From the NCBI RefSeq assembly GCF_964355755.1, contig NC_092676.1, forward strand, positions 3,888,288 through 3,952,287: 64,000 nucleotides of DNA, written 5' to 3'. The position numbers and the translations under genes were made by a program. Source of the DNA: Antedon mediterranea (taxonomy: Eukaryota > Echinodermata > Crinoidea > Comatulida > Antedonidae). Position 1 is the first letter of the stretch, and every line of letters starts with the position of its first letter. A model generated the notes under the pieces. It was not told the origin of the DNA, did not search any database, and was given only the letters and a program-made list of their open reading frames with translations. This document shows positions 35,336-64,000 of this stretch, piece by piece.

Positions 35336-35344
35336 AAACAACAA

Positions 35345-38225
35345 CAGGGAAAATCGAAAAGGAGGTGGTGTTGGCTTGTTTATTTCAAATACTATAGAGG
35401 TCAAAACAAGAACCGATTTGAAAATTAATTTCTGTGAATGTCTGTTTATTGAGATAATTGAAAAAAAGTGTAAAAATGCAATTGTTGGTACTGTCTACAG
35501 ACCACCAGACATGAAAATAGATGTTTTTAATGATTCACTTGAAGATGTCCTCACTGCTATAGACAAAGAAGGTAAACCATGTTATATCAGGGAAGATTTT
35601 AATATCAATCTGCTTAAACATGTAACATGCAGTGATGTAAATGATTTTATTGAAATAATGATGTCTCACTCGTTTTATCCATCTATATCCAAACCAACTA
35701 GAATACAAGATCAGTCAGTAACACTAATTGACAACATATTTTCAAATACAATTTCCGAAAAAGTTCTACTGTATCTGGTATACTAGTCTCGGACATTTCC
35801 GACCATTTACCAGTATATCAAATAACTCACTCTGCTTCGTCTTCCCACGTAAACACGCACATGAATAAAGGCACCTCAGTCTCATGTGACACGTATATAG
35901 TTAACAATAGAAATATTATGAAACTAAATAGTGATTTATTAAGTGCAGAGTAGCTTGGAGTATATGAAGCGACTGATCCAGAAATCGCTTATAATGATTT
36001 TCTGGATAATTTTAAGTTTCTATATAACAAACACCTTAAAAAAACTGTAAAGTCATCAAAACAGTATGACAAATTCAAGCAGCCCTGGATGAGTTTTGGG
36101 TTACTAAGGTCAAGTAAAAGAAAGCATGTACTGTATAAAAGGTTCATAAAACACCCTACTGTAAAAAACAAAAATACGTATAAAGAATTTAAAAAAGCTT
36201 TTGCACGCACGTGCAAAATCGCCAAAAAGATGTATTATGAAAATCTTTTCAATCGAACAAATGGTAATATTAAAAAAACATGGAATGTTATAAATGATGT
36301 AATTGATCCGAATAAACGAAAAACTAAAGTTCCATCTTCTTTTACACATAGCAATGAAACTATACATGGTTGCGAAAATGTTGTAAATCATATTAATGAT
36401 TATTTTATTAATGTAGGTTGTAAGGTTCGAGACAATATTGAGTCTACTACGACAAAATATTCTGAATACCTCACAAACAAACAACGCAACTCAATGTTTT
36501 TTTGCTATGTTGATGAGGAGGAGGTACTAAAAGTTATTGAATCTCTCGATTCAAACAAAGCCCCCGGATTTGATGACATTTCAGCAAAAGTTGTAAAGGA
36601 AGTAAAATACAATATTTTAAAGCCGCTGACATATATTTTTAATTTATCACTTCAAACTGGACTAATACCAGGGAAGTTGAAAATTTCCAAAGTTGTTCCC
36701 ATACATAAAAAAGGGGACCGCCATTTGGCCTCAAACTATCGTCCCATATCGCTGTTGCCCATTTTTTCGAAAGTTTTTAAAAAGATTATCCATAATCAAT
36801 TATACAATTATCTTACAAAATGTAAAGTGTTAAGCAACAATCAATATGGATTTAGAAACAAACACTCAACTTCTCATGCTATGATCGACTTGGTCCATAA
36901 AATATTAAATGCATTTGAAAAAAAGGAATATGCACTTACTACCTTTATGGATTTGTCAAAAGCGTTTGACATTATCGATCGCAGTATTCTGTTGAGCAAA
37001 TTGGCGCATTATGGTATAAGAGGCATCGTTTTAATGTGGTTTAGAAACTATTTAAGTGGCCGCAAACAATATGTTTATGCCAACGGTAGATCATCATGTT
37101 TAAAAGACACCAATATAGGGGTGCCACAGGGTTCTGTTTTAGGACCACTTTTGTTTTTAATTTACATCAATGATATAAGTCGAGCAAGTAGTAAAATAGA
37201 TATAATTAGTTTTGCTGACGACACAACTTGTATAACAAGGGGAGATGACCCTACAATGTTAAACCATACTATGAATATTGAACTAGAAAAAATAAACGTA
37301 TGGCTTAAAGCAAATAAGCTGTTACTGAATGTCAGCAAAACTAATTACGTTGTTTTTTGAACTAACCAAAAGAACTTTGACAAAAACCAGTTTAAAATAA
37401 AAATGAATAATGTGTTATTACATAGAAAAGAAAATGTGTGACATTTCTAGGTGTAATTTTAAACGAAAATCTTAACTGGAAACATCACATACAGCTTATT
37501 AGGAAAAAAATGTCTAGGGCAATTGGTATACTTTTAAAAGTAAGAGAATTCTTTCCTCATAAAGTCCGTATTAGTCTTTATAACACCTTAGTATTACCTC
37601 ACCTTCAGTATGGTAACTTAATATGGGGAAATACATACAAGAGCACGTTAGAAGGAATACTAAAACTCCAAAAGAGAGCTGTAAAATGCATTACCTTCTC
37701 TAAATCCAGACAAGCCTCAGAGCCACTGTTTAAGAAACTAAAAATATTAAATGTTTATGATATTTACAAACTAAACGTCATAGGATTTATGGCAAACGTA
37801 AAATTCAATGAATTACCACATCACATTTTAAATATTTTTAATTACTGTGAAAGTATTAGGCCTACTCATAACCTCAGAACAGAAACTGAATTCGAAATTC
37901 CCTTCACAAGACTAACTTGCAGTCAACAGTTTATACACATATAGGCCCATGGACCAAAATTGTGGAAAGAATTCACTTGTAATGGTGGTAATAAACCGGT
38001 TATCTTAAAGAAACAAAATAAATGTATAAAAAAACAGGTTAAAAAATACTTTTTATCACTATATGCTGATTAACAACACCTTTGTTTATTTAAGTTCTAT
38101 ATACTTGTTCTTATGTAAAAGGGTCCTACAAAAAAACGAAGCTACAGCTTTTTTATGCAGGATCCCTGTTCTCAGTTGTACTGTAATTATGATGTACTGT
38201 AATTGATGACTAAATAAATGTGAAA
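35345..38225 (+). mobile_element. 5'-truncated CR1/L2-like non-LTR retrotransposon (LINE), inactivated
   Basis: The element begins inside the endonuclease domain (GGGVGLFISNTIE, then GTVYRPP, and SDHLPVY after a frameshift near 35770). A reverse transcriptase frame follows at 36089-37357: KAPGFDDISAK, YRPISLLPIFSK, DLSKAFDIIDRSIL, GVPQGSVLGPLLFLIYINDI and the catalytic FADD motif. After an in-frame TGA at 37358 and a frameshift near 37437 comes the usual C-terminal region (FLGVILNENLNWKHHI, LPHLQYGNLIWGN, LQKRAVKCI) to 37942. The 3' tail has a short hairpin-like segment and ends in AAATAAATGTGAAAAAAA. A stop at 35950-35952 and these lesions make it dead. Domain order and motifs fit the Jockey superfamily, CR1/L2/Daphne side; the clade was not resolved. 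Confidence 0.9.
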
Positions 38226-44459: not shown

Positions 44460-44747
44460 AATTATGTGTTTAAAAATTATTGAAAACATTACATGTTGTA
44501 CAAAAGCATTATTGCCCCTATTGTTAGATTATAGTAAGATTGTAGTAGACTTTGTTGATTCTGGCACGCACCACAAATCAAATTGCTTAACATCTGATCA
44601 TGCTCATTGACAAAATTTGCGTTGTGATAGTTGCCATCAAATTCCAAGGCACTGATTGGTTAACATGCACAGACGTTAGATACAGTAGATCCACCATAAG
44701 GAAACACCGTTGAATAAATGAGGGGTTTATATACTTTAACACTACAT

Positions 44748-45258
44748 TCATGGAACACGCCTATAAAGGAACAGTCTCCAAGGCGTCCCCTTTACATTTA
44801 GGGGACACGCCTAGGGACAGCCTCCAAGGTGTCCGCATTACAATCAGGGGGACACGCCTATAATGAGACAGTCTCCAAGGCATCCCCTTTACATTCAAGA
44901 GATACACCTATAATGAAACAGTCTCCAAGGTGTCACCTTTAAATTCAGGAGACGCGTCTATAAAGGGACAGTCTCAAAGGCGTCCCTTTACATTCGGGAG
45001 ACACGCCCATAAAAAGAGAGTAGCCAAGGTGTCGCCCTTTACATTCATGGGACGCGCCTATAAAGGTGTACAAGGTGTCCCTTTTAAATTCAGGGGACAT
45101 GCCCATAAAGGGACAGTCTCCAAGGCATCCCCTTTACTTTCAGGACACGCCTATAAAGGGACAGTCTCCAAGATGTCCCCTTTACATTCAGGGGGACACG
45201 CCTATAATGAGACAGTCTTCAAGGTGTGTCCCCTTTACCTTCATGGGACGTGCCTTTA
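44748..45258. repeat. minisatellite in the TFG 3' flank, about 50-bp unit, about ten copies
   Basis: The unit is like GGGACACGCCTATAAAGGGA, CAGTCTCCAAGG and CGTCCCCTTTACATTCA. Units differ by substitutions and small indels. Open frames through it (such as 44930-45274) are by-products of the repeat. It starts 290 bp after the TFG stop codon, so it may be in the 3' UTR. Confidence 0.92.
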
Positions 45259-46730
45259 TAGGGGTTTCTTCTGATAATACCTCATAGTTCTTGTGTTCCA
45301 ACAATAACAAGTTTCAATATTTAGTTTATCATTACACTGATTTAAATTTTGGAATAAAATATATGAAAATTGTAAATAATATTAATATAGTCGTTGGAAA
45401 ATGATTCTATTATTCCAAGTAATGATTACATTGATAATCTTTGTAATACATGTCTTATTTAAATGTTTATACCGAAAATCTTACTTATGAGCATCAATAA
45501 TTGAGTAAAACACATATTTTTTAAATAGGGGTATGTTTATTTTGTCATTTTGGTAGTAAATTCATCCCCAATTTGACATGTATACATTTTCTAACAAACT
45601 TTGCAGATTAAGATTAATAAAATATAATTACCCAGATAGATTTAGTATACTGTAATATAATAGTATGTGGTAAGATAATGATTTTGATTCTGTATGTCTC
45701 TGTCTGTCCGTCTTTTTTTATCTCGTGTTTTCAGACAAGAATGGTTTTGTTGATATTTTACAGTACAATTTATTCTTCTGGTAGCTCTATCACATACCAG
45801 ATGTGGATTTATAAGAGGCACATTATGTACATGTGCTCTATCACATACCAGATGTGGATTTAGAAGAGGCACATTATGTACATGTGCTCTATCACATACC
45901 AGAAGTGGATTTAGAAGAGGCACACTATGTACATGTTATTGTTCATGCCGTTCGCAAGAGCCGACACCATACCCCTTTATACACAATGCTGGATCCCTAC
46001 ATACATTTTTTTTATGTACACACACAATTTGCTTCACCTTACATTTGGTAACTAAGGGTTTCAAATTTCCACATCCTTATAAATGGTGTTAAAATATTCG
46101 TAATATAGAATAATTATAGTTTTGTTATTTTATTTCATTAAATAAATATTTCATACATCAATGCCACCAATCTGTATCATTTGACTAAACTTGCACATAG
46201 TTTTGAAAAACAGATATTACTCATTTTATGGACTTTCATCATTTTTTTTTACATTAATTTATTGGTTAATTATAAAATTGTGTATTGCTGCTTATATTTC
46301 ATAAAATTTAGTTCATTAAAATGAATTATGTAATGATCTTATTTTTGTCATTTACTTTGCTTTTCACATACCTTGAATTTACATAAAAATAAAGTTGAAA
46401 AATACTTCCATTGCATTTTAATAATTATTTTTTTCAATATTGTTTATTGTGTACAATTAAAAACTGAAAAGTTTGGTTAGCAGGAAATCTTTCTATTTTT
46501 AATTGCATAATTAAGTAATTTTGATATACCCTGTACTAGTATTGTTTATCTATTATGACTATAGCTAAATACATTGTACAATTTTTTTTTTAAATTGCAT
46601 TAATGAGTTTTCTGAGCCATTGTCTATTTTGATATTTTGGATAGTGTACACTTACAGACCTGAGGAAACTCTTAGTTTGCAAAAAAAAAAGTTTCATAAA
46701 GTCTCTTAGTGACTTGATTAGGAAACATTT
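45259..46730. other. TFG-FAAP100 convergent intergenic region
   Basis: Several AATAAA signals (for example about 45617, 46139 and 46387) could serve TFG. The 51-bp repeat is inside. No coding frame is supported. Confidence 0.5.
45783..45935. repeat. 51-bp tandem repeat, three units
   Basis: Each unit begins CTCTATCACATACCAGATGT and contains GAGGCACATTATGTACATG. The copies differ at only a few positions, so the expansion is young. It lies between TFG and FAAP100. Confidence 0.93.
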
Positions 46731-46827: not shown

Positions 46828-49800
46828 TCAAATCAGTTGACTCCTTGCTTTTACGTAAATCTTCATTTGTTCATTCACGTCTTGTTGACTGTGTGTCTGT
46901 GAAGTACCTTCCGGTATTCTGCTTTTCAAAATTTCAATTTCATCACAAATTTCCTGTAATTAACAACAAAAGTACAATTAAAATACAGACTCTGGTGCTT
47001 TTGATTTGGACCTATGCATGTTGTGTCATTGGTTGTTGCAAAGCCGATTTTCCATTAGGCGAATTTGTTCACCGAATCCAACGTTTTGAAGAGAAAAAAA
47101 TTGCCTACTCTCTTTCCACTACATGCGCAAATAACTGCAATGTTCATGTTCCTAGCATGGCTACTGAGCATTTCAATTCGCATGAGTGCTTATGAAAGCA
47201 TCATAGCCTATTTCCTGATTGGTTGCACAATATTTCGCTTCGCAAAAAGTAGAAACAATACGAACTAGTAAATTTCGCTGAAGCGAAAAATCAAAGGAAC
47301 TAGAATTCGTCAAATGACAGACAGAAACTCGAAAGCGCATAGCATGGCACTTTTGATTCACGCAAACACATTCGCCTAGTGGAAAATCGGCTTTAGAATC
47401 CACCAAAACTGATTGTTTGAAGAATAGTGTCAGGAAGCACAACCTGTATGTGCACAATGAATTCACATCACTTGTTCCTAGGTTTAATTACTACTACATT
47501 CAATCAATTACTTTAATTAAAGGTCATTCATTAGAATTCTGTATACCTTTAAGTTGTTGATCTTGGTTTCAAACTCGTCTGATGTAAAAGGTTTGCTTGT
47601 ACTTTGTTGTAAGCAGCTCTAAAAAAGAAAAGTTAGTTGTTTTATCGATAAATCTGTGGACATGGCAGAGATCTTTAGGACATTAAAACGTTGGTATTTT
47701 AACCCAGGGAGGTATACAATTATTTTATACCTCCCTGTTTAACCTACCTGAAAAAAGTAAGTAAGGTTTGCAAACATTTAAACAACAATGTATTATCAAA
47801 ACATTTTTATTAATTATATTACTGGAAAAAAAAGTAATGAAAACTAATGACAGGGTCTCACCATCATTTTTAAATGAATTGCCATGACAACGTGCGACAA
47901 CACTTGTAACTGATCAGATTTCAAAGTGATTGACACCTCTTCTCCCTTCATTGACAACATAAATATCACACGAAAGCCTTTAGGACTTTCCGTTGTCATG
48001 GTGGCCTGGTTTACGCATACCCCAGGCGGGACGAGGTGGGTTGCAGGTAAAAGCCATCGAAACACCTTTTCATAATTTAAATCACCTAAAAAATTAGATT
48101 AGATATGAAGAATTTATATTTTTCATTTGAACTTAGTTTCCTCAAATAGTTTCTGCTTAATTTATATTGTTGCGTAATTGTTAAGACACGAAATATACCT
48201 TCTGAAGCAATTATCTGGCAAAGGTTAAAGGTCTTGAAATGTAGGACGATTGATACATTTTCTGCCCCCACATGTTGAAACTTTGGGTTAGACTTTTTCA
48301 TCCAGTCATCATTTTTGGTATTAGCCTTGTATGTTCCAGAATTTGTTTGAAAGAATTTAGCAACATTAAATGAGTTTCCCATGTATTGTGGTGTCAAAGG
48401 TTGTAGAACATCTAAAAGGTCAAAGTGCATGTCATTTAAGGGAATACTAATGCTATCAGCATGAAGGTTGACCTTTGACATCCTGGTTTGTTTTGGATCA
48501 AGTTGTGCTACCAAATTGGAAGCATCGAAATGCACTGCCATCGAAATATCAATCGGAAGGTTGATCCTCTCTTCTGTTAAATTAAACTTTAACCTTTGTG
48601 TCTCGCCAGGGTGAAACACTTTTAAAGGTATTGATTCACTAAACATAATGTTGCGCTGACCACTTTGTGAGAACCAATCATGCTCTCCGTTTAATGTGAC
48701 ATAAAATGACCAACCACAACTCATTGTAAACAAACTGCGATTGGTTATTTCACATAAAATACTTAATTCTTTTCTGTTTCCCTGATCATCAATATTTAAA
48801 TGAGCATTAGATGGGAAAGACTGTTTTCTAGATGATGATCTTTCACTACAAAGATGACAAGCTTTGTTTAATTCCACAAGTATGGCATTATGTAGCTCGG
48901 AATTATTTTTCATTGTACTCATTTCTGTTGCCAAATTGTTGATAGCGCTTAAAAGTTCCTGTATCTCCTTCCCAGCGGAACTAGCCGAATGTGGTGCGCC
49001 GATAATTCCTTCCGGAATTCGCAGTTTAGCAATATTTCCTTTTGCTGTAAGCAGGAAAACATTCCCAAGTGGTGAATCTAGAAAAGAATTATTATATATG
49101 TGTAAACATTACAAACTTATTTCATTCAAATTTCCTGTCATTGGTGAAAAAAGTGGTTAATGTGGACAAAATTGTTAAATATTGGAAAGAGGCTCTAAAA
49201 AAAATAATGTGATAGTCTTGATTAGTCTAGGTGGGCTTAGAGATTGGTCAGATATATATGGTCGCTGAGTTTTTGCTTCGGTTAGGTTGATTCTGAGGAA
49301 TAGACTTAGACCCTTTGATTTGTTCAGTCTGGGGCAAAATATCACATCTAAGCCATTTATCCCCATGGTAGTGATTTTATATATTTTGAATTTTTAAACG
49401 AATGCTTTATGTACCATGTTGAGATTGGTTGTGAAAGACATCCGATATTGCAACAACTTGATTGACACCCAGGTCATTTGATGACAACATATCTGATAAA
49501 CTTTTCTGGTCTGAAGTCTGTCTCTTAAGATGTACCTGCAGCAACTGGTTGCCAGTTGAGTACATCAACATATCTGGTGAGACTTTGACCACAGATAATA
49601 CTGGTTCTTGAATATAACATTCCTGGAACATGGTGATATTTTCCCCGCTGTTACTCTTCAATCCAATGGTAACTAATTTCCCTTCTGTTCCCAAGAGCAT
49701 CAAATTGTCTTCTTTTTTCCGAGTCTCATCAACTCGTATTGCGCAAACGAAAGCCAAAGGCTGGTATAAATTATATAAAATCTTTTTATTTGACGCAGGT

Positions 49801-50994
49801 GTGTTCGTGAAGGTGGTAACATCTTTAAACGGCATGGTGACAATCGTACCATCTGGAAGGCCTATGAGGACTATGTTCGATCCCATCATGTTGTGCTCCG
49901 GACTAAATATCTCATTGAATAACTCATCTTTTATAATGACCATATTTGGCAACGGGCAAGAAGTTCCTATGGTTTCTGATTCAACACAGTACATTTTGCA
50001 TTGATGCATGTCGTTTGACCTTTGACATTTAAATATCCTTTCACATGTATGTTCAAAGTGTATTTTGTTATCATACGAATTGTCATTTTTCTGTTGAAAT
50101 ACTTTTATCATTATATCATTGTCATCTGTAATAGATGCAGTGAATAAGCAACCACCAACAGTCAACACGTTAACTAAATTTGTAATTTTCAATATAACGG
50201 CGCCTTCGTCTAATATCAAAACATCTTCAGCTGAAGAACTCTTCGTCTCATCGTCGTCCAAAAGTCCTGCAAATATATCTTCTGTTGAGTCAGATTCTGA
50301 GGTTGCCTTAACAGGCAGTCTGAAACAAAAGAAAAATTATTAAAAATAAACAAATGCATTCATTTGGCATACCATTTTTTTTTTAAGATTCTGAAATTTA
50401 TTTAATATTTAACTAATAAATACTAAGTCTTTTAAACAACACATAGAAACTTACTTTTTGTTGATAATATCTTTGATATTAATTGCACATATTCTTCCAC
50501 CTTCTAACCCACAAATTAATGTTGTCATCGCATTAAGTAATGTTGTACACCAACAGTGACAATCTCCGGGCAGTACACAAGTTGCCTGAAATTACAGAAA
50601 AAAAATGTTATGCCTCCCCTGTCACCTGTGAATGTCAGGAATCCTCCATCAATGAGGGAAATTTAATATAATAATAATGTTGGCTTAATTTATAAACATT
50701 TAATATCTCTAGGCCCACTACGTTTCTATAATCCCTAGGAATGTTTGATAAATCACGGGCCGCTAAGTGAGTCTAACCTGTCAAGGAGTCGTCTCTCTTC
50801 AGCTATATAAATAAATTAGGGAGGCTTAACATATATACCGTGCGTTTTCCCTGTTCGTAAATGTATAATTTAGCTCCGTTGCAGACAACTTGAACATTAT
50901 CATTTTCGACTTTAATCGAGGCTACACATGATTTATTTATTGCTGGTTTAGAACACCGATCAAGCATTTGCAGGGAAATTGTAGATCCCGCCAT
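46828..50994 (-). CDS. FAAP100: FAAP100 orthologue (Fanconi anaemia core-complex protein), complete
   Basis: In vertebrates FAAP100 forms a nuclear subcomplex with FANCB and the E3 ligase FANCL that ubiquitinates FANCD2/FANCI at interstrand crosslinks. Coding exons (minus strand): 50994-50839, 50585-50455, 50319-49415, 49077-48199, 48085-47862, 47618-47547, 46953-46828; phases agree and the product is 830 aa (human about 881). Family-like blocks: KLYIYEQ near the N-terminus; VLIGLPDGTI; LLGTEGKLVTIGLK, YIQEPVLSVV and YSTGNQLLQVHL in the propeller-like N-terminal half; LLTAKGNIAKLRI then GKEIQELLSAINNL (about 425-440); ILCEITNRSLF...CGWSFYV; and a C-terminal helical tail, EICDEIEILKSRI, in the last exon. 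Assignment rests on remembered similarity to human FAAP100 along the whole length, without an alignment. The start lies 443 bp from the divergent FAAH-like pseudogene start. A half MITE-A lies just past the stop codon. Confidence 0.85.
47040..47395. mobile_element. palindromic MITE in the last FAAP100 intron (family F)
   Basis: AAAGCCGATTTTCCATTAGG at the left and CCTAGTGGAAAATCGGCTTT at the right form the TIRs of a roughly 356-bp element. The interior is rich in ATTTCGCTTCGC-like stretches. A shorter relative lies at 56285-56446. Confidence 0.85.
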
Positions 50995-51437
50995 TGTGTG
51001 TGTACCATCAAAATAAAAACATTAAAAACCAAAATAACTTCGCCCGCCACCAGCGGTCAATGAAGTTTTGCTACTTTCTTTTTTGGCGCTTACAAAATTA
51101 AACAGCTTTCAAAAGAAAAATCTTCATCAATCACATTAAACTATTTGAATCACGAACATGTACTTGTGAATGCAGATATCTGAATAATTAAAATAACCAA
51201 ATTAATGTTAATTCTGAGATAAAAAAACGACTTAAATGGTCCAATAAAGTAGGCCTACTAATGGCACGCCTAATTTTTGTCAACAAAACGGCACGTGGAC
51301 CTCCCATGGACTGTCCGGATGCGACGTAGACTAGTACATTGTATTGTCGTCATGTTCGTTTTAATTGTATCGAGAGTATAAACTATAATCTAACTTAAAT
51401 CTCTGTGAGTCAGTATAGTAAGGACAATTTACTAAAA
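50995..51437. promoter_or_regulatory. divergent intergenic region between FAAP100 and the FAAH pseudogene
   Basis: The 443 bp separate two head-to-head starts. The part from about 51262 is shared with 58905-59097 upstream of the intact FAAH, including a nearly identical block from about 51273 to 51318 with an E-box CACGTG at 51292-51297. The FAAP100-proximal half has no recognisable counterpart downstream. Promoter function is inferred from position and paralogue conservation. Confidence 0.5.
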
Positions 51438-53273
51438 ATGGACAACGACTATATCCATATTTCTACTGTTGTTGCTTCAATATGTATCCTTATTACAATC
51501 GTTTGGTTTTTCGCTACCCGGAGAAGCAGCAACACAAGAAGGTGCGTCGTAAAGAGACCCGTTGGTGAAGCTAGCTGCCGAAATTACAATATCGTGAAAG
51601 CGGTATGTATGGGCCTGTGGCCTGACCTACTTCTTGTCGGTCTTTCATTGTTCGGGCCTAGCCATAGATGATATTTATTGGTCTTACATCGTGCTCTTCA
51701 TAATTAAAATGTTTGTTTTTACTTCTAGACAGTACCAAGATTTTCCGGCTGGACACTTTTTGCCACGATATTATCGAAGTGGGTCGGTTCGTCATAGAAA
51801 TGTGTAAAATTAAAAAAGATTTGTTACGCTTGACTTTTAGGTTCTTGGTGGTTTCATATCCTCGGTCACAGCAAGGTATCAAGCTACAATTTTGTCTCGA
51901 TATAAAATGTTTTAATGCAGAAATAGCACGAACGAGTCCTATTACATTTTTTAATTAGGAAAGAAATTTGTGCCAGCTAAAATATTTTTACAGCCTGTAT
52001 ACTATTTGAAAAAAAATGTACATTTTACTAATTTTTTACTAACTGACTATTTCAGCTATTAATAACTATTTGATATAATTTTATTTCTAGCGAAACTAAC
52101 ATATATTTGTTCCAAAATTTGCAATTGGATGATATTCCAACATACCAACCACGATTCCCATTTAGCGGACCAAAAGCTAAAGTGAACGAGAAATGTGCCA
52201 CAGATAATTTGGTTTTAAAGAAACAAAAACGTTCGAGAAAAGAATTCAAGTATCACAGTGTTTCTGAGTTCCATCAAACATACTTTTAAATATTTTTTTT
52301 GTCTCAATATCTAAAACATCATCATTCTCATTACAGTACAGTACACGCACTAACTCAAGGTTCAATAACCAGTACGGTAACATTTTATTTTAGGTGTGGT
52401 GAAGTTACTAGACGTGAGGTAAAAGCCAAACAGATTTTACACTCACTTAAAATTTTTTTTTTTATTATTTCAAATAAAATTTCAAAATATCATTCTTCTC
52501 ATAAATAATTAGAAATGTTCACTAATTACAATAGACACATTGTAGCAATGTAATATATCTTCATATCTAATGGAATGAATAACTTCAGAAATGATTTTCA
52601 TTAGGTCTGGTGAAGTTACACCTTCTGAGGTCGCCGAGGATGCGATTGAAGCTATACAGATGTCAGAAGCACGAGAACCAAAGCTGCGAGCTTTTATTTA
52701 ATACAATACCTTTGAAATTAGACGTGTAAGGGAAACTACCATAGTAAATGCTGTTTAACTTAACTACCATACTAAATACAAAAGGCAAGGATGACTATTT
52801 ACCTTGGATTCTACATACCTGTTCAACTAGTGTAAGCCCTATTTTAAATGTAAGACGTGGTATATGACAATGTATAACAACCAATTTCAAAACTGGCGTT
52901 CTTGGATTAAAAAAGTATAGAATGTGGTACATACCATGGAGTAAAGAATAAGTTGGCTGCAGATGACACGATGTGACACAGGGGAGAAGAATGTTGTTGA
53001 AAAGGTGTAATATCTAAGTGCTCTGATCTTCATGAAATAGCTCGCTATATAAATGTCGCACATTACATTACAAAAAAATTATTCTTTACTCCATTATTTA
53101 ATAATACAGCACAACCCCTACTTTGGGACAAGGGGTAACTTTTGTGTGAAACAAATAGGACAAAGTGGAATATCTGCACTAGGGCTAAATCCTATACATA
53201 GGAAAGCCCTATTAAGGTGACACTTTGTTTATTAGGTCTTGACAATTATCCTCCTCTTATTATGGGCTCTACT

Positions 53274-53424
53274 TTAAAGATGTATTATCCCCCAAAAATA
53301 TGAAAAATTAAGATTAATTAAATCAAACTTTGAATATATTATTTTGTAGTTTTAGTAAAGTTAATCACTTCCATAGAAAAAAGGATAGAAAAATTGTTTT
53401 TCAGAGGGACAATACATCTTTAAT
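53274..53424. mobile_element. MITE family D, internally deleted copy in the FAAH pseudogene
   Basis: TTAAAGATGTATTATCCCCC at the left and AGAGGGACAATACATCTTTA at the right; the interior is reduced to about 110 bp. It lies where exons 6 and 7 would be expected. Confidence 0.8.
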
Positions 53425-53639
53425 AGAAAAGAATTAACAGCATTTTATCCTTTAAATACTTATTGTAATATAATGATATACTTTTATAATTAAGAAATCA
53501 ACCTTTGTATTAGAATTCAAATAAGTTCACGAACTTGGCCCAGAAAGTCCAGAGGAGAGTTTGTCCAGATGTTTTAATGTCCATTTAGTTTATAATAGAA
53601 TCCCTAAAGAAAACACTTAGCTTAATTTTGTGACCTTTC

Positions 53640-54012
53640 CCATCGTTAAACCAGGAGAGATTGACACTATTTAAGTACAGATTTGACAGTGTCATCCATC
53701 ATAGAAATACCTTATTATACCGTTAATCACTTCTACTCAAACACCCCTGGATCAACTTAGGACCAATCAGTATATGCAAATGAACCGAAGCCAATATACC
53801 CCCAAGTTTCAGAAGAGCCCAGACACACCTTACAGCCACCTCACGGAGCACACACTTCACATCTCACCGACAGCATCACTGATCCTCCGTTCCTTATCCT
53901 TAGTTATAGTATATTGTACCGAATCATTATTGCATCAAGTATTATACTGAATAAACAATATATGTGTTACGACAGTTAAGCGAGTAAGAGTCTTCATTAC
54001 AAGTCAGTACCT
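53640..54012 (+). mobile_element. possible solo LTR-like insert in the FAAH pseudogene
   Basis: The block sits where exons 6 and 7 should be and has no match in the paralogue. It looks promoter-like: ACCAATCAG, ATGCAAAT (about 53774), a TATA-like TTATAGTATATTG (about 53905), AATAAA (about 53951), and a possible end at CTCAACA. Clear terminal repeats or a target duplication were not found, so this is tentative. Confidence 0.3.
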
Positions 54013-54290
54013 CAACAAACACTATATTACATTATATTGTTTATAAAAAGACCTTGCAGAAATGCTAGCTTTATATTCTAGCATTTTTATTAGTTTGTAT
54101 AAGTTTAGTTTATTCCTTTTTATTTAGATTACATGGAACAGCAAGGAATCCTTACAATACTAATCATTATGTTGGTGGCTCAAGCGGTTCATCTGCGGCG
54201 GTATCTTCTGGTATATTCAACACTTTATAGAATTACTATATATGGACTGTTTAGGGGTATTTTTATTCTAACTATAGGCCTACTATTCTT

Positions 54291-54385
54291 AAAGATATTG
54301 TCCAACTAAAAAATGTGTTTTATTAAATTTTTTTTTTTAATATGCCATTTTAATGTCACATAATAGTTATTCACTTTGACCAAAA
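54291..54385. mobile_element. MITE family D half, fused to the FAAH exon 9 remnant
   Basis: AAAGATATTGTCCAACTAAA, then ATATGCCATTTTAATGTCAC, then AGTTATTCACTTTGACCAAA. The sequence passes straight into ATTTGCTCGTCAGTACGAGA, the tail of exon 9. The second half of the MITE and the first part of exon 9 are missing. Confidence 0.85.
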
Positions 54386-54460
54386 ATTTGCTCGTCAGTA
54401 CGAGATGTAGCCCTAGCCTATGGTATGGTGTCGTGTAATATGTTTTTGAAGACATCTGTT

Positions 54461-54623
54461 AAGCTCTGTCTACACTATCAAACTAGTTTGACAAAAAAAG
54501 TGTGATGTGCCTAAATATGGTAGTGATATGTTTAAATATGGTAGTGATATGACATCATCATGTCCATATATGAGCACATCAGATTTTTTGTCACATAAAG
54601 TTTAATAGTGTAGACAGGGCTTT
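54461..54623. mobile_element. MITE family A, full copy private to the FAAH pseudogene
   Basis: TIRs are AAGCTCTGTCTACACTATCA and AGTGTAGACAGGGCTTTA. It sits in the intron after the exon 9 remnant. The matching intron of the intact paralogue (from 61563) has no such element, so it inserted after the duplication. Confidence 0.9.
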
Positions 54624-55104
54624 AGTCTCTTTGGTTTTCCATAAATGTTTAAAGGCATGGGAGTTTAGTGGTTAAGATTCTCTGTAACTCAATCTCATAG
54701 TAATTGGCTCAAATCATGATGTACTCATCTTTCTCCAACAAACAACACTCTTAAAGAGAAAGAAAAAATGTTTGTGTAAAAGGGGCAGTATGTTTTTTTT
54801 AATCGTATTTAGCTTTGGTTGCCGGTCCAGATCCTCGAGATCCTTTCACCGTTGACCAACCAGAAGTCACGCTTAAAAACTTTGATATATAAAATTGATC
54901 TCTACAACATCAAGATTGGAATTGATTGGCATTATTTTAGAGTAAGAAATTAATATTAAAAGATATCGACAGTTGGCAAACATTTCAACACATTGCTGGA
55001 CTGAGTACCCCATAAGGTCCGAATCAATTTTAGGGGAATTTTCATTTGAGAAATAAACCCATGTTTATCTCGACTTGTGTCTTAGTTACCATGAGAATAA
55101 ATCT

Positions 55105-55195
55105 TGTTCTGGGAGTTCCAGGATTTGAACCTGCACTCGGGTTGGTAGCAAGAATGTTAACCAGCAATGCTTCCATTATACCATAGATATTATTA
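55105..55195 (-). mobile_element. old tRNA-derived SINE copy in the FAAH pseudogene
   Basis: CAGGATTTGAACCTGCACTC and GCAAGAATGTTAACCAGCAA are complements of the B and A boxes. A related, degraded sequence occupies the matching intron of the paralogue (about 62095-62165), so the SINE predates the gene duplication. Confidence 0.65.
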
Positions 55196-56284
55196 TACCA
55201 TATTTTCCATTATTATACTGTGCTATTATTTACTTAGTTCCGCGATTTTTAACTTTCTTTCAGGACCGCGATAAAGAGATCCTTAGCGCATGTGAAAAAG
55301 GTAATTCGTGGCGTTTGTCAAGCAGATGGTGCTACACAATGTTAACATGACAAAAATAAATGGATTCTTCTACACTCTCAATGATATACCTGTAGTTAGT
55401 GCTCCACAGTTCAACAATGACTTAGCGGAAAAGAGAAAGCATGTAACGTTTATTATTGATACGGAATATACTGGTGTCATGGTTCTGCTTGATGAGTGTG
55501 TCTGTTAACATGCACATTACCATCAACAAAATAGTTGTTGAGCAGGAAAATCTATTTTTTACTGCATGATGTCTGTAAAACTTGCTTACTACCTCACCAA
55601 CTCTTCTCCAAGATTTTTGTATTAAATTCTTTCCAAGCTGTCAAGCATCTGGAGATGAATGAAGCTAAGGTTATTGACGTACATTGAGATTCCAGAGTTG
55701 GAAGAAGCTAGAATTGGCCATCTCATTACATGCTTAGCAGAAATGAGTCCTAAAATTACAAATGCTCTATGTGACTACTACAATAAAATAGTAAGTAAAT
55801 TTTAGTTAGTGATCCTAAAAATGCTTGACAATTTCAGACGGCTTTAAATAAGGGCCTGTTCACACTACGGAATTAGAGGTTTTAATGTTCACCCCTACAC
55901 AGGTATATACTCATCAATAGGCCTGAACCTATTTTCAACAAAGTCTCAAGTATCTACTGTATGACGCTTATGATATGACGATTACGTTACGATGTTATGA
56001 TACAAAAGTTTCCATCCAATCAAATTGATTCCTGCATACCCGATATTTACCCACATAACTTCAAATTGTTGTACAGATATCAACATTTTATGCTCGATAT
56101 ATTTTTTCCCGATGCAGTCATGCGAATCCAGGTTGAACATGTCAGCAGCTAGCAACATATCAGCCACAGACTTTGTACGGGCGAATAAACAACGAACAAG
56201 AACTATCAACTTTCTGAAAGAAATTTATCAACAAGTAGATGTTATTATAACACCAGGTAAATTGGACCAGCCCCTGAACCCGCC

Positions 56285-56446
56285 TAAAGCCGATTTTCAA
56301 CTAGGCGAATTTGTTCGCGCGAATCTAAAGCGCCAGTTTGTACGCATGCGTATCCATGTTCACATCTTAATCCTTCTCTACGCATGTGTATTAGCTGACG
56401 CCTTTGATTCGCGCGAAAAAATTCGCCTAGTGGAAAATTGGCTGTA
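56285..56446. mobile_element. MITE family F copy private to the FAAH pseudogene
   Basis: AAAGCCGATTTTCAACTAGG at the left and CCTAGTGGAAAATTGGCTGT at the right. In the intact paralogue the flanks GGACCAGCC and GGGACCACCAAT are joined directly (about 63141-63161), giving a near-exact empty site. Confidence 0.9.
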
Positions 56447-57073
56447 AGGACCACCAATTACTTTCCTAACATCTGATTACCATGTTGCAGAAGTAACAGT
56501 ATATGTAGTAGGGTACAGATGTGAAAAAGGATGGTAGAGTGAAAATTCGATACAGATATAAGCACGTTTTTGTGGAACAGTTTTTAAAGAAATAAAAGTT
56601 TCTGATTCTTAATCCAAATAAAGAGAAGGAAGTATGATTCAACGTACTGATTTTTATTGGATCAAAATCAGGAAAGATAATAATTCTAATAGGCAGATAG
56701 TAATAATTATAATAGTTAACACCAAGATATTATATATGCAAATGAGGATTGATGTAGAAACTTTGAATCATTGCTTCCTATATTGTTTGAAGTTGGTTTT
56801 ATCAAAGTGAATTTATTTCACACCCACCGTATACAACTCTATAGGCCTTAAACTTTTTAAACAAAGTTTCGAGGTACATAGTAATTAGCCTATACGTACT
56901 GTATGACGCTTACAATACAACGCTTGATACCAAACCAAACTTATACCAAAAATATTGTTCACTTTCATTTTTTAGGAACACTTATTGCATCTATTAAGTG
57001 CTTACACCTATACTCTGTATGGATGAGTGGATACACCTCAGTATTACACACCTATTAACCTATTTAAAACCTA

Positions 57074-57426
57074 TTAAAGTAGTATTGTCCCCCTAAAAAA
57101 AATATATATTTTTTTTAAATTTTGTTGTTGAATAAGTCATTTTAATTAAACATACACATAATAGTTATTCACTTTGACCAAAAATTGGATCGGAGAAAAT
57201 GATTTACCTGAAAAATAGTAATTTTAAGTAAGAAAATGTAATAGTCAAATTGGGTGCCAGTCAATGGATTTTTAGGTTGAATTAAACCGTTTTATTTTAT
57301 TTTTTTTCGGGTTTTTTTTTTCTACAGAAATGATTAACTTTGTTAAAACTACAAAATGGCCTATTCAAGGTATGATATTTATTAATCTTTATTTTTCATC
57401 TTTTTGAGTGATAATTAATCTTTAAA
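57074..57426. mobile_element. MITE family D, full copy in the FAAH pseudogene
   Basis: TTAAAGTAGTATTGTCCCCC at the left. The interior matches the 13.4-kb copy (CACTTTGACCAAAAATTGGA; TAGTCAAATTGGGTGCCAG). The right end is degraded (GAGTGATAATTAATCTTTAA). The corresponding intron of the intact paralogue lacks it. Confidence 0.85.
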
Positions 57427-57657
57427 TAGGTATATTTTTGTGTTTTTAGGAACAGCTATTACAGCTCCTGAGATCCAGCCTGGAGATCTGACATAATATG
57501 GAACGTTTGACACGGACACTATAGTTGATTCAATGAGGTAAAGTTATAGGACCCTTAAACAAACTTTAAAATGTCAAAGTACTATAAAAGGCAATTTAAA
57601 AAAAACAATAAACAATATATTTTTGCTCCCTTGATTAAAAAATATATTATGTTTTTG

Positions 57658-57712
57658 TTTGCGTTGCGTCTACGTCCTTGCATTGGTTCCTAGTAGTGGG
57701 AATCAAGCTTTA
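57658..57712. mobile_element. MITE family C, right-end fragment
   Basis: GCGTTGCGTCTACGTCCTTG, then TAGTAGTGGGAATCAAGCTT. It lies in the last intron of the FAAH pseudogene, just before a MITE-A. Confidence 0.65.
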
Positions 57713-57730
57713 CTGTGAAGGCAGTAGACC

Positions 57731-57875
57731 TAAAGCTCTGTCCACACTATCAAACTAGAGTTTGACAAAAAAGTGTGATGTCCCCAAATATGGTAGTGAT
57801 ATATCATCATGTCCATATATGGGCACATCACATTTTTTTTGTCACATAAAGTTTGATAGTGGAGACAGAGCTTAA
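57731..57875. mobile_element. MITE family A, full copy in the last intron of the FAAH pseudogene
   Basis: TIRs are AAAGCTCTGTCCACACTATC and GATAGTGGAGACAGAGCTT. It is absent from the matching intron of the paralogue (63709-63941). Confidence 0.9.
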
Positions 57876-58150
57876 AACAGTTTATGACGTTGAATCCCAC
57901 AGCCCTTTTGACATAATAGTGACACTGTGGTATGGTAGTTTGCTTAATGGTTGAAAATCGGTTGTTTTTCTCGTTCTTTTTAACTAGGTATATGTTTTTG
58001 GGTGACTTTGTTGGTAATCCGTGTTTAGTGGTTCCCGTTGGATTCAGTCAGATGGGTTTGCCGATAAGTCTCCAGATCCATGGAAGATGGTGGGAAGAGG
58101 ATATAGTACTACTCATCGGAAATGTGGCGGAGATGGCTTGTCCACCTTGA

Positions 58151-58619
58151 CCACAACAACCAGAGGTCTTTTACTCCTTGCTGTGAAAATAAATTTATTA
58201 TAGTAAATTAATATGGAAACAGGCTGTGGAAAGGACTTATTTCATCCAGGGAAAAAATATATAGGCCTAAATCGTAAAACTAAATTTGTATTTTAGTACA
58301 GTGCTAATTTTATATTTGTACTTTTATTTAGTCTAGTCTAGACTCTCTTAATGCTTGTAAAAGAAAATCATTGTGGCACTCATGGTGTGTCATAACTTCG
58401 ACTGAAATAATCTAGTTTCAATTCAATTCACATTTTCAATTCATAGTAAATTTTAAATGTTACTCTTTATGACATCATTTAATTCACGGCTGTTGATTTG
58501 ATGTAATTAGAACAAAATAAATACATTTTCTGAAGTTACCTTAAAAATGTTAATATAAATTATAGTAACATTTTTCTAATACTAAACAAACAGCTTATCA
58601 TTAAAATGTAAACATTTTA
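58151..58619. other. spacer between the FAAH pseudogene and its paralogue
   Basis: Starts with AATAAATTTATTATAG (about 58187), a possible old polyadenylation signal; AT-rich otherwise. Confidence 0.5.
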
Positions 58620-58668
58620 TGTTGATATAAAGTTTGCGGTACACCAATATTTAAGTTCTGAACAGGAA
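58620..58668. repeat. fragment related to the outer arm of the 30.8-kb inverted repeat
   Basis: TGTTGATATAAAGTTTGCGG then TACACC and AAGTTCTGAA match the outer arms at 30792-30833 and 30965-31001. Only one arm is present. It lies between the FAAH pseudogene and its paralogue. Confidence 0.7.
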
Positions 58669-58904
58669 GGACAATTAAATTGTAGGATATTTTAAATCTT
58701 TCTAAAGCTTTCGTTAGTGTCCAGGTAGAGGATCCATATTTTACTGTGTATTAATCCCTCGATCCACTGTAGCACAATAAAAAGATTGATAATTATTAGA
58801 ATGTATGATCAATAGACAATGTTGCCTATACCTAGCCTTTAAGATTAAGTGATTAATGCCCTCGGTTAGTGCTTTGCACACCAAACCTAACTCTTTTCAA
58901 AAAT

Positions 58905-59097
58905 TTATATGTTGCTGGCGTGCCATATTTTTGTCAACAAAACTGCACGTGGACCTCCCATGGACTGTGCAGGTACGTATAGTGAATTCCAGGTAAGTAC
59001 GCCTTTTACCGGATGCGACATGCTTCGCTGCACGTAGCACATTGTGTTGTTTATCGAGAGTATAATCAGTAGTATTTGTAAGGAAAATTGACTCAAA
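58905..59097 (+). promoter_or_regulatory. probable promoter / 5' leader of the intact FAAH gene
   Basis: The region repeats the segment upstream of the pseudogene copy: GTCAACAAAAC, E-box CACGTG (58946-58951), GGACCTCCCATGGACTG, and later ATCGAGAGTATAA, 20-45 bp before the start codon. It marks the left edge of the duplicated unit, so the duplication carried its proximal promoter. The downstream copy has about 20 bp extra around 58975-59010. Confidence 0.5.
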
Positions 59098-62000
59098 ATG
59101 GACAACAACTATATTCATATTTCTACTGTTGTTGCCTCAACATGTATCCTTATGACAACCGTGTGGTTGTTCGCTATCCGGAGAAGTAGCAACACAAGAA
59201 GGCGCGTCGTAAAGAGACCCGTAGGTGAAGCTAGCTGCCGAAATTACAATATCGTGAAAGCGGTATGTATGGGCCTCTGGCCTGCGACCTACTGCTTGTC
59301 GGTCTTTCAATGTTTGGGCCTAGCCATATATATTGGTCTTACAACGTGCACTTCTTGATTAAAATTTTTGTTTTTACTTCTTTTAGACAGTACCAAGATT
59401 TTCCGGCTTGACACTAAAGTTTGCCACGACATTATCAAATTCTGTAAGTAGTTTTGAGTTTTATCATTCATAAGATTAAAAAGATTTGTTTATGCTTTTG
59501 ACTGCACAGATGGGTGCAGTTAGTTTAGTTGCAATCGGTTCTTTAGCCTTATGATAAAGAAAATTTGTGTTTGTTTTTTTTTTAGGTTCTTGGTGGTTTT
59601 ATTTCCTCGGTCACAGCAAGGTATCACATTATAATTTTTTATTATTTTTTTTTTTTACATTATTGAAAATGATTGATATAGAATATGTTTAAATGCAGAA
59701 ATAGAAATTGCACAAAAAGTCCTTGCAAAATAGTTTTAATTAGAAAATAAATTTGTGCAGGTAAAATATTTGTGCAGGTATATAATACTAATTCTTACTG
59801 CTTTTGATTATTTTTAAAACTATTTGATATCATTTTTTTTCCAGCGAAGCTAACCTATATTTGTTTCGAAATTTGCAATTGGATGATATTCCAACGTACC
59901 AACCACGATTCCCATTTAGCGGACCACAAGCCAAAGTGAACGAGAAATGTGCCACAGATAACTTGGTTTTTAAGAAACAGAAACGTTCGAGAAAGGAATT
60001 CAACTATCACAGTGTTTCTGAATTCCATCAAGCGTACCTGTAAATATAATTTTGTTGTGATTGTTTAAAACAACATTATTCTCATTACAGTAGAACCCAA
60101 GGTTCAGTAATCATAAAGTAAATTTTATTTTAGGTCTGGTGAAGTTACACCTTCTGAAGTAGCCGAGGATGCGATTGAAGCTATACAGATGTCAGAAGCA
60201 CGAGAACCAAAACTGCGAGCTTTTATTGAATACAATACCTTTGAAATCAGACGTGTAAGTGAAACTACCATAGTAAATGCTGTTAACTAAACTAGTATGT
60301 TAAACAAAGGAAAATATATGTTTGGACCTTCCTATTAATGAGACATTTGTTGAGTTCCATCGATTTCCTCTTCAATAGTGTTTCTTCTTTAATAGAAAAA
60401 AATTAGGAGCCTTTATATTTGGTTGTTTATTATTTTTTGTTTTATTATTATTTATTTTTATTGTTTATAGATGGCTAAGGAGTCTACTGATAGATACAGC
60501 AAAGGAACTTGGTTGTCTGTGTTTGATGGAGTTCCCGTAGCTTTTAAAAATGAGCTTCATTGTGTATGTATACATTGTTTTTTTTTATACATTCATAAAA
60601 ACCTAATGCCGTTGAAATTCTGTATGCCTTACCAGAATATGTAAGGATAACTATTTGTGTTTGATTTTGTAGGTACCATACCACAGACGGGCTGGAAGTG
60701 AATGCTTTGGCAGTGAGCAGAGCGTGGAAGACGCCGCTGTTGTAGCCAAGATGAGAGCAGCTGGAGCTATGATACTAGGGGTTACAAATATGCACGAGTT
60801 TGGCCTAGGTACCACTGGCTGTAACCCAGGCAAGTAAGTAACTTCAATTTATTTCTTGTCCAGACTGCAAAGTATCGTTGGAAATTATACAATTTCCAGA
60901 GATCATTCTCTATTAGGGCAGAGAGAATAATTCTGAGCAACTGATTTTTAAAAATTACTTTTTTGAAAACAAACATACTAAAACATTTTCTTTTAATTTT
61001 TAATTTGTTTTTTAATAATTATGCCCCTGTTACAAAGAGAAAAAATAAAGTGTGTAAAATAACCATTTTGTAAATTATTATTACAAAATTTTTATCCCCA
61101 ACAAAATTGGTTGTAAACCAAAAAAAGGGTTTTTACACTCCAGCATTACAATTTTTGTATGATTGATTGTTTTGTAAGTTAACTATGTTACCTTTTTATT
61201 TAGATTACATGGAACGGCAAGAAATCCTTACAACACTAATCATTACACTGGCGGAAGCTCAAGTGGTTCATCCGCAGCGGTATCTTCTGGTACATTCAAA
61301 ACTTTATAGAGTTTGTATGCATATTTTTATTCTTCAATAAAATGTTTCACAACCTCTGTCTTTGTTTTTCTAGGTTTATGTCCAGTAGCGTTTGGTACTG
61401 ACGCAGGAGGATCGATCCGTATTCCTTCCTCATTCTGTGGTATAGTTGGGCTTAAAGCAACGCTAGGCCGCATTAGTTATTATGGTGGAGCAGGGCAATG
61501 TTACTCTTGCTTGCATTGTGGGCCAATTTGCTCGTCTGTACGAGATGTAGCCCTGGCCTATGGTATGTTATCTTGTAATGTTTCTAGTCGAACGTTTTTC
61601 CATATAAATTGTTGAATAAAAGGCTTGTGGAGTTGTAGCTAAGATACTCTGAGAGTCCTGGGGGTCATGTAATGATTGCTCTTTCTCCAACAACAAACAA
61701 ACATTGTGGTTGAACTATGCCATCCACTGCAAAACAAATTGTTTTATATCGCCGCATTTTACCTTTTTTTAGCTATGGTTGCCGGTCCAGATCCTCGAGA
61801 TCCTTTCACCGTCGACCAACCAGAAGTCACGCTTCAAAACTTTGATAATATTGATCTCTACAACATTAAGATTGGAATTGATTGGCATTTCTTTAGAGTA
61901 AGAAATTAAGATAAGATATCGACAGTTGGCAAAACACATTTTTACGAGTCTGAATCTATTTTAACTTAACTTTTTCTTACACGTCAAAGGCCTATCAATT

Positions 62001-64000
62001 AAGCACATGACTCGCCAATGGCATGTTGGGAAATAAAACCCATGTTTGTAACCCAAGTCTCTTATGTGTCTGAGGTAGTAACATAAGAATAACTCTGGTT
62101 TGAACCTAGCATTCTGAGATCGGTAGCAAGCATGTTAACAACCAGTAATTCCACTATGATCATACTTTTGTTATACTGTGTTTTTTACATATTTCCTTAA
62201 TTTATAACTTTTTTTCAGGACTGTGATAAAGAAATCCTTAGCGCATGTGAAAAAGGTAATTATTTAATTTTTGCCCTGAGTTATTCACCATTGCATTTGC
62301 CAAGACAAAAGAGGGTTCCATGGCAAAAATAAAGTACTACACCAAACAAAATGGCCTAAAACATTTTTGGAGTTCTCAGTTCAACAATGGTCTAGCAGAT
62401 ATGAGAAAAAGCATGCCATTTATATTGACTGTTAGGGAGTATACTGGTGTTATGTCTGTTGTTAAATGTGTGTGCCTGGCAACATGTTGAAAAGGCATAA
62501 ATGCGAAGCAAGCCAACAAATGTCATTAAAACCTCACTCACTACTTCAAAAACGCTTTACAAGATTTGTTTCTTTGTATCTTTCGAAGCTGTCAAGCATC
62601 TAGAGATGAACGGAGCTAAGGTTATTGACATTGAGATTCCAGAGTTGGAAGAAGCTAGAATTGGCCATATCATTACATGCTTAGCAGAGATGAGGCCTAC
62701 AATTACAAATGTTCTATGTGACCACTACAATAAAATAGTAAGTAAATAACAAGTCATGATTTGAATAAGGGCCTGTTCAGACCTACAAAATTATGGTTTT
62801 GTATAGTACTCCGCACTGTGAAGAATTGGGAAAAAGTTATTGGTAGCATCTAGTTATATCGCTGACCTTTACTATGAAAGGTTATTAAAACAAGGTTAGT
62901 ATATGATATATTTACGACACAAAAGTACAAATTTTAAAATTTGGTGCTCATTATTTATTTTTTTTCCCGATGCAGTCATGCGAATCCAGGTTGAACATGT
63001 CAGCAGCCAACAACATATCAGCCACAGACTTTGTACTAGCGAATAAACAACGAACAAGAACTATCAACTTTCTGAAAGATATTTATCAACAAGTAGATGT
63101 TATAATAACACCAGGTAATACTCGATGGTTCCTTTACAAGGACCAGCCTTAGGGACCACCAATCACTTTCCTGGCAGATATAAATTAACAGTACTGTATC
63201 AGACAGTATAGTGTACAAATGTAAAAGAGAGAAAGTAGAGTTAAAGCTAGCTCTGTCTACACTATCAAACTAGTTTGACAAAAAAAGTGCGATGTGCCAA
63301 AATATGGTAGTGATATGCATAAATACGGTAGTGATATCACATATCATCATGTCCATATATGGGCTCTTCACATTTGTTGTCACATAATGTTTGATAGTGT
63401 AGACAGCTTTAGACTTAATGACTAGTCATTCAGCTGTTTTATCGATATTGGAAATGGGAATCAAACTTATCTCAAATGGTTACATAGGATAGTTAAGAGG
63501 GAATTCATATCCCTCTCATTATTTGAAGTTAGTTATTAAAAGATAGTACACCTCCCACCTTTTCATACTACACCTATTACAACTGTTTGCTGACAAAGGC
63601 ATTAAATATTTTTGTGTTCTTAGGAACACCTATTACAGCTCCTGAGATCCAGCCTGGCGATCTCAACTATGGAACGTTTGATTCGGACACTATAGTTGAT
63701 TCAATGAGGTAAGTTATTGGGCTATAACCTTATACTTTTAAAATAATTTAACCCATTAAATATACTGTGTAAAAATAAATATATTTTTTGAAAAAACACT
63801 AAACAATACGTTTACTACTGTTCTTGTTCCCTTGAGGCAAAAAAAAAACCATTTTAAGTGTTGGTATCATTTGAGCAATGTGGGTGGAAAACATCCTAAG
63901 TTACTGTTAATAACTTATCATTTTCTCGTTCTTTTAACTAGGTATATGTTTTTGGGTGATTTTGTTGGTAATCCGTGTTTAGTTGTTCCCGTTGGATTCA
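59098..64000 (+). CDS. fatty acid amide hydrolase, plant-type FAAH / amidase-signature family (3' end beyond window)
   Basis: Predicted serine hydrolase of fatty acid amides such as N-acylethanolamines. Exons: 59098-59262, 59387-59443, 59586-59620, 59845-60039, 60134-60254, 60471-60563, 60673-60833, 61204-61289, 61374-61562, 61773-61897, 62219-62255, 62589-62737, 62976-63114, 63624-63708, 63942 onward. Phases agree throughout; about 599 aa expected if the last exon ends as in the upstream copy. An N-terminal hydrophobic segment (about residues 7-26) suggests a membrane anchor. Catalytic set: Lys217 in [10 protein letters not shown], cis-Ser294 in [14 protein letters not shown], nucleophile Ser318 in [12 protein letters not shown]. 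Plant-FAAH-like features are the upstream [12 protein letters not shown] block, [37 protein letters not shown] and [18 protein letters not shown]. It is a head-to-tail paralogue of the pseudogene at 51438-58150. No lesion was seen within the window. Substrate is inferred from family. Confidence 0.92.
62095..62165 (-). mobile_element. old tRNA-derived SINE copy in the intact FAAH gene
   Basis: TTGAACCTAGCATTCTGAGA and GTAGCAAGCATGTTAACAAC are at the same intron position as the pseudogene's 55105-55195 copy. Confidence 0.6.
63242..63411. mobile_element. MITE family A, full copy private to the intact FAAH gene
   Basis: TIRs are CTCTGTCTACACTATCAAAC and GTTTGATAGTGTAGACAG. It lies in the intron after exon 13; the pseudogene intron at the corresponding site (about 56540) lacks it. 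Confidence 0.9.

Follow-up and report, generated by a model that had tools for sequence, protein, structure and literature searches.

In human, FAAH-OUT (FAAHP1) is a pseudogene and long non-coding RNA located next to the fatty acid amide hydrolase gene FAAH, whose expression it affects according to two reports (PMC6676009, PMC10473560). A similar arrangement, in which a broken copy adjoins an intact fatty acid amide hydrolase gene, is present in a 64,000-bp stretch of the genome of the crinoid Antedon mediterranea (C7:3888288-3952287, hereafter the window). Compared with the human case, however, the two crinoid copies belong to another amidase branch, the broken copy lies upstream of the intact gene whereas FAAH-OUT lies downstream, and transcription or a regulatory role of the broken copy is hypothetical. 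A literature search on FAAH, pseudogene and tandem duplication found no report of such a case, as judged by titles and the openings of abstracts. It is highly probable that a tandem duplication gave two plant-type FAAH genes, of which the upstream copy (U) later lost its function and the downstream copy (D) stayed intact. U is an ordinary duplicated pseudogene beside an intact sister gene. As in other duplicated (non-processed) pseudogenes, the introns are kept, homology extends past the exons (both flanks align with those of D), and disabling lesions and repeat insertions are present; U differs from them in nothing of kind, but shows signs of a constrained period before its death.

The intact copy consists of 15 exons, and its gene model was completed with 9 kb of DNA 3' of the window:

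59098-64137, plus strand: D, intact plant-type FAAH gene, with its final 137 bp past the window end
59098-59262, 59387-59443, 59586-59620 and 59845-60039, plus strand: D exons 1-4
60134-60254, 60471-60563, 60673-60833 and 61204-61289, plus strand: D exons 5-8
61374-61562, 61773-61897, 62219-62255 and 62589-62737, plus strand: D exons 9-12
62976-63114, 63624-63708 and 63942-64137, plus strand: D exons 13-15

The coding sequence of 1,833 bp is translated into 610 aa, possesses a single, terminal stop, and is interrupted by introns with GT-AG borders in 14/14 cases, which upholds the original prediction that the downstream copy is clean, the gene end at 64137 being outside the window. The protein is a member of the Pfam Amidase family PF01425 (289 bits against a curated cut-off of 27, E 9.9e-86). 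Among proteins of solved structure its best relative is the FAAH of Arabidopsis (AtFAAH; PDB 6dhv, E 2.2e-99), which aligns across D residues 45-610, while mammalian FAAH1 entries match at 9e-20 to 5e-18 over residues 207-367 only; bacterial GatA and other amidases stand between the two among the matches of D. The FAAH label proposed earlier is thereby refined, the protein being nearer by sequence to plant FAAH than to mammalian FAAH1. The Lys motif FKNE (from residue 216) and both Ser motifs, GGSSSGSS (292) and GGSIRIPS (316), are in register with AtFAAH. These three motifs are taken here to fill the Ser-cisSer-Lys catalytic roles. D presumably makes an enzyme, for which we infer a putative activity on N-acylethanolamines. 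Unlike Arabidopsis FAAH, D is a 15-exon animal gene whose residues 1-44 are unaligned and whose substrate and activity are putative. A literature search found no report of plant-type FAAH in metazoa, and the present locus adds such a gene in an animal.

The two copies lie on one strand with the same exon order. Each D exon, padded with 12 bp at both ends, was aligned to 51001-58600 and compared with 20 shuffled controls; for 13 of the 15, U contains a counterpart in matching order that scores above all 20. The exon 1 starts (51438 and 59098) are separated by 7,660 bp, in agreement with the predicted spacing of about 7.65 kb, and the predicted common upstream DNA of about 170 bp was recovered in a gappy form, accompanied by a common 3' flank:

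51262-51437, plus strand: 5' flank of U, start of the duplicated unit (125/145 identical to D 58916-59097, 11 gaps)
58187-58340, plus strand: 3' flank of U, end of the duplicated unit (124/143 identical to D 64138-64324, 13 gaps)

Because BLAST homology starts at U 51262 and D 58916 and ends at U 58340 and D 64324, the duplicated unit comprises the gene with less than 200 bp per side (about 5.4 kb in D, 58916-64324), and the spacer measures about 575 bp. The gene model and the exon alignments show two FAAH copies arranged head to tail, the upstream one dead and the downstream one intact, as predicted. In the whole 354-Mb assembly (18 contigs), 31 candidates were scored in a search with D and yielded 27 rows: 21 belong to U or D on C7 and the other six to distant paralogs of 41-54% identity. 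A Pfam search gave amidase loci on C1, C7 and C9 (32 rows). By sequence, D is the only intact gene of its kind found among the best-scored candidates of these genome searches. Seven other amidase loci were considered as outgroups and rejected, since their short matches to D (30-65% identity, E < 0.05) are too distant to polarise changes. A further amidase-family pair, about 9 kb apart, is located on the minus strand at C9:20439411-20453082. No Rfam match was obtained in 50000-64000.

The remnants and lesions of the upstream copy are as follows:

51438-58186, plus strand: U, pseudogene with ordered remnants of exons 1-5 and 8-15
51438-51602, plus strand: exon 1, frame open, ATG and GT donor retained
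51729-51782, plus strand: exon 2, 3 bp lost in frame; end placed by extending without gaps, which leaves a GT where the donor should be, in altered context
52091-52285, plus strand: exon 4, GT donor lost, TT instead
52605-52725, plus strand: exon 5, GAA>TAA in-frame stop at codon 183 of D
54128-54210, plus strand: exon 8, 3 bp lost in the serine-rich catalytic loop (GGSSSGSS to GGSSGSS)
54385-54422, plus strand: exon 9 remnant, the final 34-38 of 189 bp
54813-54941, plus strand: exon 10, +4 bp frameshift
55638-55790, plus strand: exon 12, +4 bp frameshift
57450-57537, plus strand: exon 14, +3 bp change containing an in-frame TAA
57988-58186, plus strand: exon 15, CGA>TGA stop (codon 600 of D) and +3 bp in frame

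All of the stops and frameshifts that had been predicted in exons 5, 10, 12 and 14 were found in the exon alignments. The predicted absence of exons 6, 7 and most of exon 9 was borne out as well, as exons 6 and 7 gave alignment scores below the best of 20 shuffles within 51001-58600 and exon 9 is reduced to the remnant listed above. Beyond the earlier list, U carries the exon 15 stop, the exon 4 donor loss, the 3-bp losses in exons 2 and 8 and the 3-bp gain in exon 15, and exons 1, 3, 11 and 13 are free of such lesions. A donor loss in exon 2 was also considered, the local alignment having ended four bases early, and was rejected, as ungapped continuation shows the GT. When joined, U exons 1-5 (190 codons) read open up to codon 182, the stop in exon 5. 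Since exon 6 carries the Lys motif and exon 9 carries GGSIRIPS, the full catalytic set would be impossible in any splice form of U, and the remaining motif, GGSSSGSS, is one residue short. A second, degenerate exon 5 start with an acceptor is present at 52382-52417, about 210 bp before U exon 5.

The gaps in U are mostly filled or bordered by repeats:

52767-54100: stretch expected to hold exons 6-7, no exon match, mostly repeats
52951-53072: second short interspersed repeat of the exon 6-7 gap (best 40 of 188 candidates scored, one being this place)
53272-53403: short interspersed repeat of the exon 6-7 gap (best 40 of 2333 candidates scored, one being this place)
53464-54031: solo LTR of 568 bp with ends TGTAATATA...TATATTACA and TTAT, a 4-bp target duplication, on either side
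54289-54388: interspersed repeat fragment abutting the exon 9 remnant, AATT common at the joint

The solo LTR belongs to a family with at least 39 other genomic places (best 40 of 2725 first-look candidates scored). Twelve of these 39 copies were examined, and nine have a matching 4-bp duplication. The three copies without it, two with one common 3' flank and a third with a purine-rich 5' flank, look as if they were parts of longer elements. Recombination between LTRs in introns 5 and 7 was considered as the cause of the exon 6-7 loss and is unneeded, as TTAT flanks both sides of the LTR. The 3' flank of the LTR scored 56.4 against D intron 7, just over the maximum of 200 shuffles (55.6), and the 5' flank scored a marginal 46.6 against D intron 5 (95% of shuffles, 44.0; maximum, 48.2), and the 23 bp adjoining the LTR gave no stand-out score. 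The joint between repeat and exon 9, with its common AATT, is consistent with a small deletion that began within the repeat and reached into the exon; a longer copy of this repeat is located at 57074-57426. A palindromic repeat lies in intron 13 of D and, in U, in introns 9 and 14, so that the insertions were separate events. The palindrome TAGGCCTA occurs 19 times in the window (1-64000), whereas 100 dinucleotide shuffles average 0.41 occurrences and never exceed 3.

The divergence of the two copies bears on how U came to be in this state. Virtually no credence can be given to an assembly artefact, in which U would be an allele of D that carries sequencing errors and was left uncollapsed or wrongly joined, considering that the copies differ at 6.8% of exon bases (94/1384 aligned in 12 exons, the exon 9 remnant excluded) against 18% of intron bases (218/1205 in introns 2, 3, 10, 11, 12 and 14 pooled), that repeat positions differ between U and D, and that the LTR is flanked by matching TTAT. 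Introns 5-9 were excluded, exons being absent there in U, and introns 4 and 13 (Jukes-Cantor 0.170 and 0.198) are outside the pool. Over 466 aligned codons, Ks is 0.192 and Ka is 0.035, giving a Ka/Ks of 0.18 (two sequences only), and synonymous and intron divergence are in agreement. Exon-only gene conversion, which was considered as the source of the exon similarity, is unneeded, as synonymous sites match introns in divergence. It is extremely unlikely that U was already dead when it arose by duplication and decayed neutrally from then on: its many lesions, including two nonsense substitutions, speak for such a history, but the low Ka/Ks speaks against it. In a Poisson count model (53 synonymous, 37 nonsynonymous and 2 nonsense changes; 0.02 grid), which ignores rate variation and whose best fit, with w at 0.02, means an almost unchanging protein elsewhere, the unconstrained share of the U branch is best placed at 0.42 (0.08-0.70 within 1.92 log units). 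A share of 1 ('dead from birth') fits worse by 6.2 log units, even with D allowed no amino-acid change at all, which this share requires. Moreover, only 6 small indels are found in the 12 exons (1384 aligned bases) compared with 96 in seven introns (1324). Multiples of three make up 4/6 of the small exon indels and 25/96 of the intron indels of <=12 bp (binomial p 0.04), where the excess is based on six events only and intron counts vary with gap settings. Among 39 residue differences (two of them stops), AtFAAH agrees with D at 7, with U at 2 and with neither at 22, and has no residue at 8, which polarises the changes weakly. Taken together, Ka/Ks, the count model and the indel pattern make it probable that U evolved under constraint for a period and lost its function only afterwards, with loose bounds on both share and date.

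Another proposal is that U acts as a transcribed pseudogene regulating D, or that its promoter and exon 1 provide an alternative start for D, which is highly unlikely, although the 5' flank, exon 1, ATG and donor of U all survive, U exon 1 would join D exon 2 in frame, and FAAH-OUT offers a human parallel in regulating FAAH (PMC6676009, PMC10473560). Intron 1 has also diverged less than the six pooled introns (10/119 against 218/1205 bases, Fisher p 0.007), but it is one of seven introns and was singled out post hoc, after the others had been viewed. Furthermore, U exon 1 differs from D at 12/165 bases, near the exon mean of 6.8%, the common 5' flank (176 bp) is broken by 11 gaps, and the human pseudogene is downstream of its gene rather than upstream. 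We likewise see little chance that U, though dead, has been retained for a regulatory role, in which its promoter and exon 1 (51262-51728, a segment that takes in the least diverged of the compared introns) would start non-coding RNA or transcripts spliced in frame into D. Should U be transcribed, the locus would parallel human FAAH-OUT by convergence, in another amidase branch.

According to the favored reading, with a duplication followed by the later loss of U, a single-gene tandem duplication, presumably through unequal exchange, would have produced the head-to-tail pair of plant-type FAAH genes, and selection probably acted on both for some of the period that followed. U would then have been disabled by stop codons, frameshifts, loss of a splice donor and deletions that took exons 6 and 7 and the greater part of exon 9, and an LTR retrotransposon (today a solo LTR) and short interspersed repeats inserted in or beside the gaps; the late death of U and the order of lesions are what we infer.

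The main importance of the locus is a warning for annotation, as a gene caller could build a valid-looking chimera of U and D. U exon 1 followed by D exons 2-15 forms one frame with a single stop at its end. Given that the reading frame continues from U exon 1 into D exon 2, the warning in the original prediction was fair, and the risk of a chimeric model is real in principle.

Several other features were also identified in the window. On the minus strand, a long open frame at 48086-49108 matches Pfam FANCAA (Fanconi anemia-associated) at 5e-17, another at 49407-50336 has no Pfam match at 0.01, and an open frame at 32722-33129 matches Sulfotransfer_1 at 3e-11. Three long open frames follow in series at 35337-37944, the middle one of which (35954-37360), the sole one scanned, matches RVT_1 (reverse transcriptase) at 8.1e-34. 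Finally, a minisatellite with a 50-bp unit repeated about 10.6 times occupies 44743-45263, and a 51-bp unit is repeated three times with 97% matches at 45784-45936.
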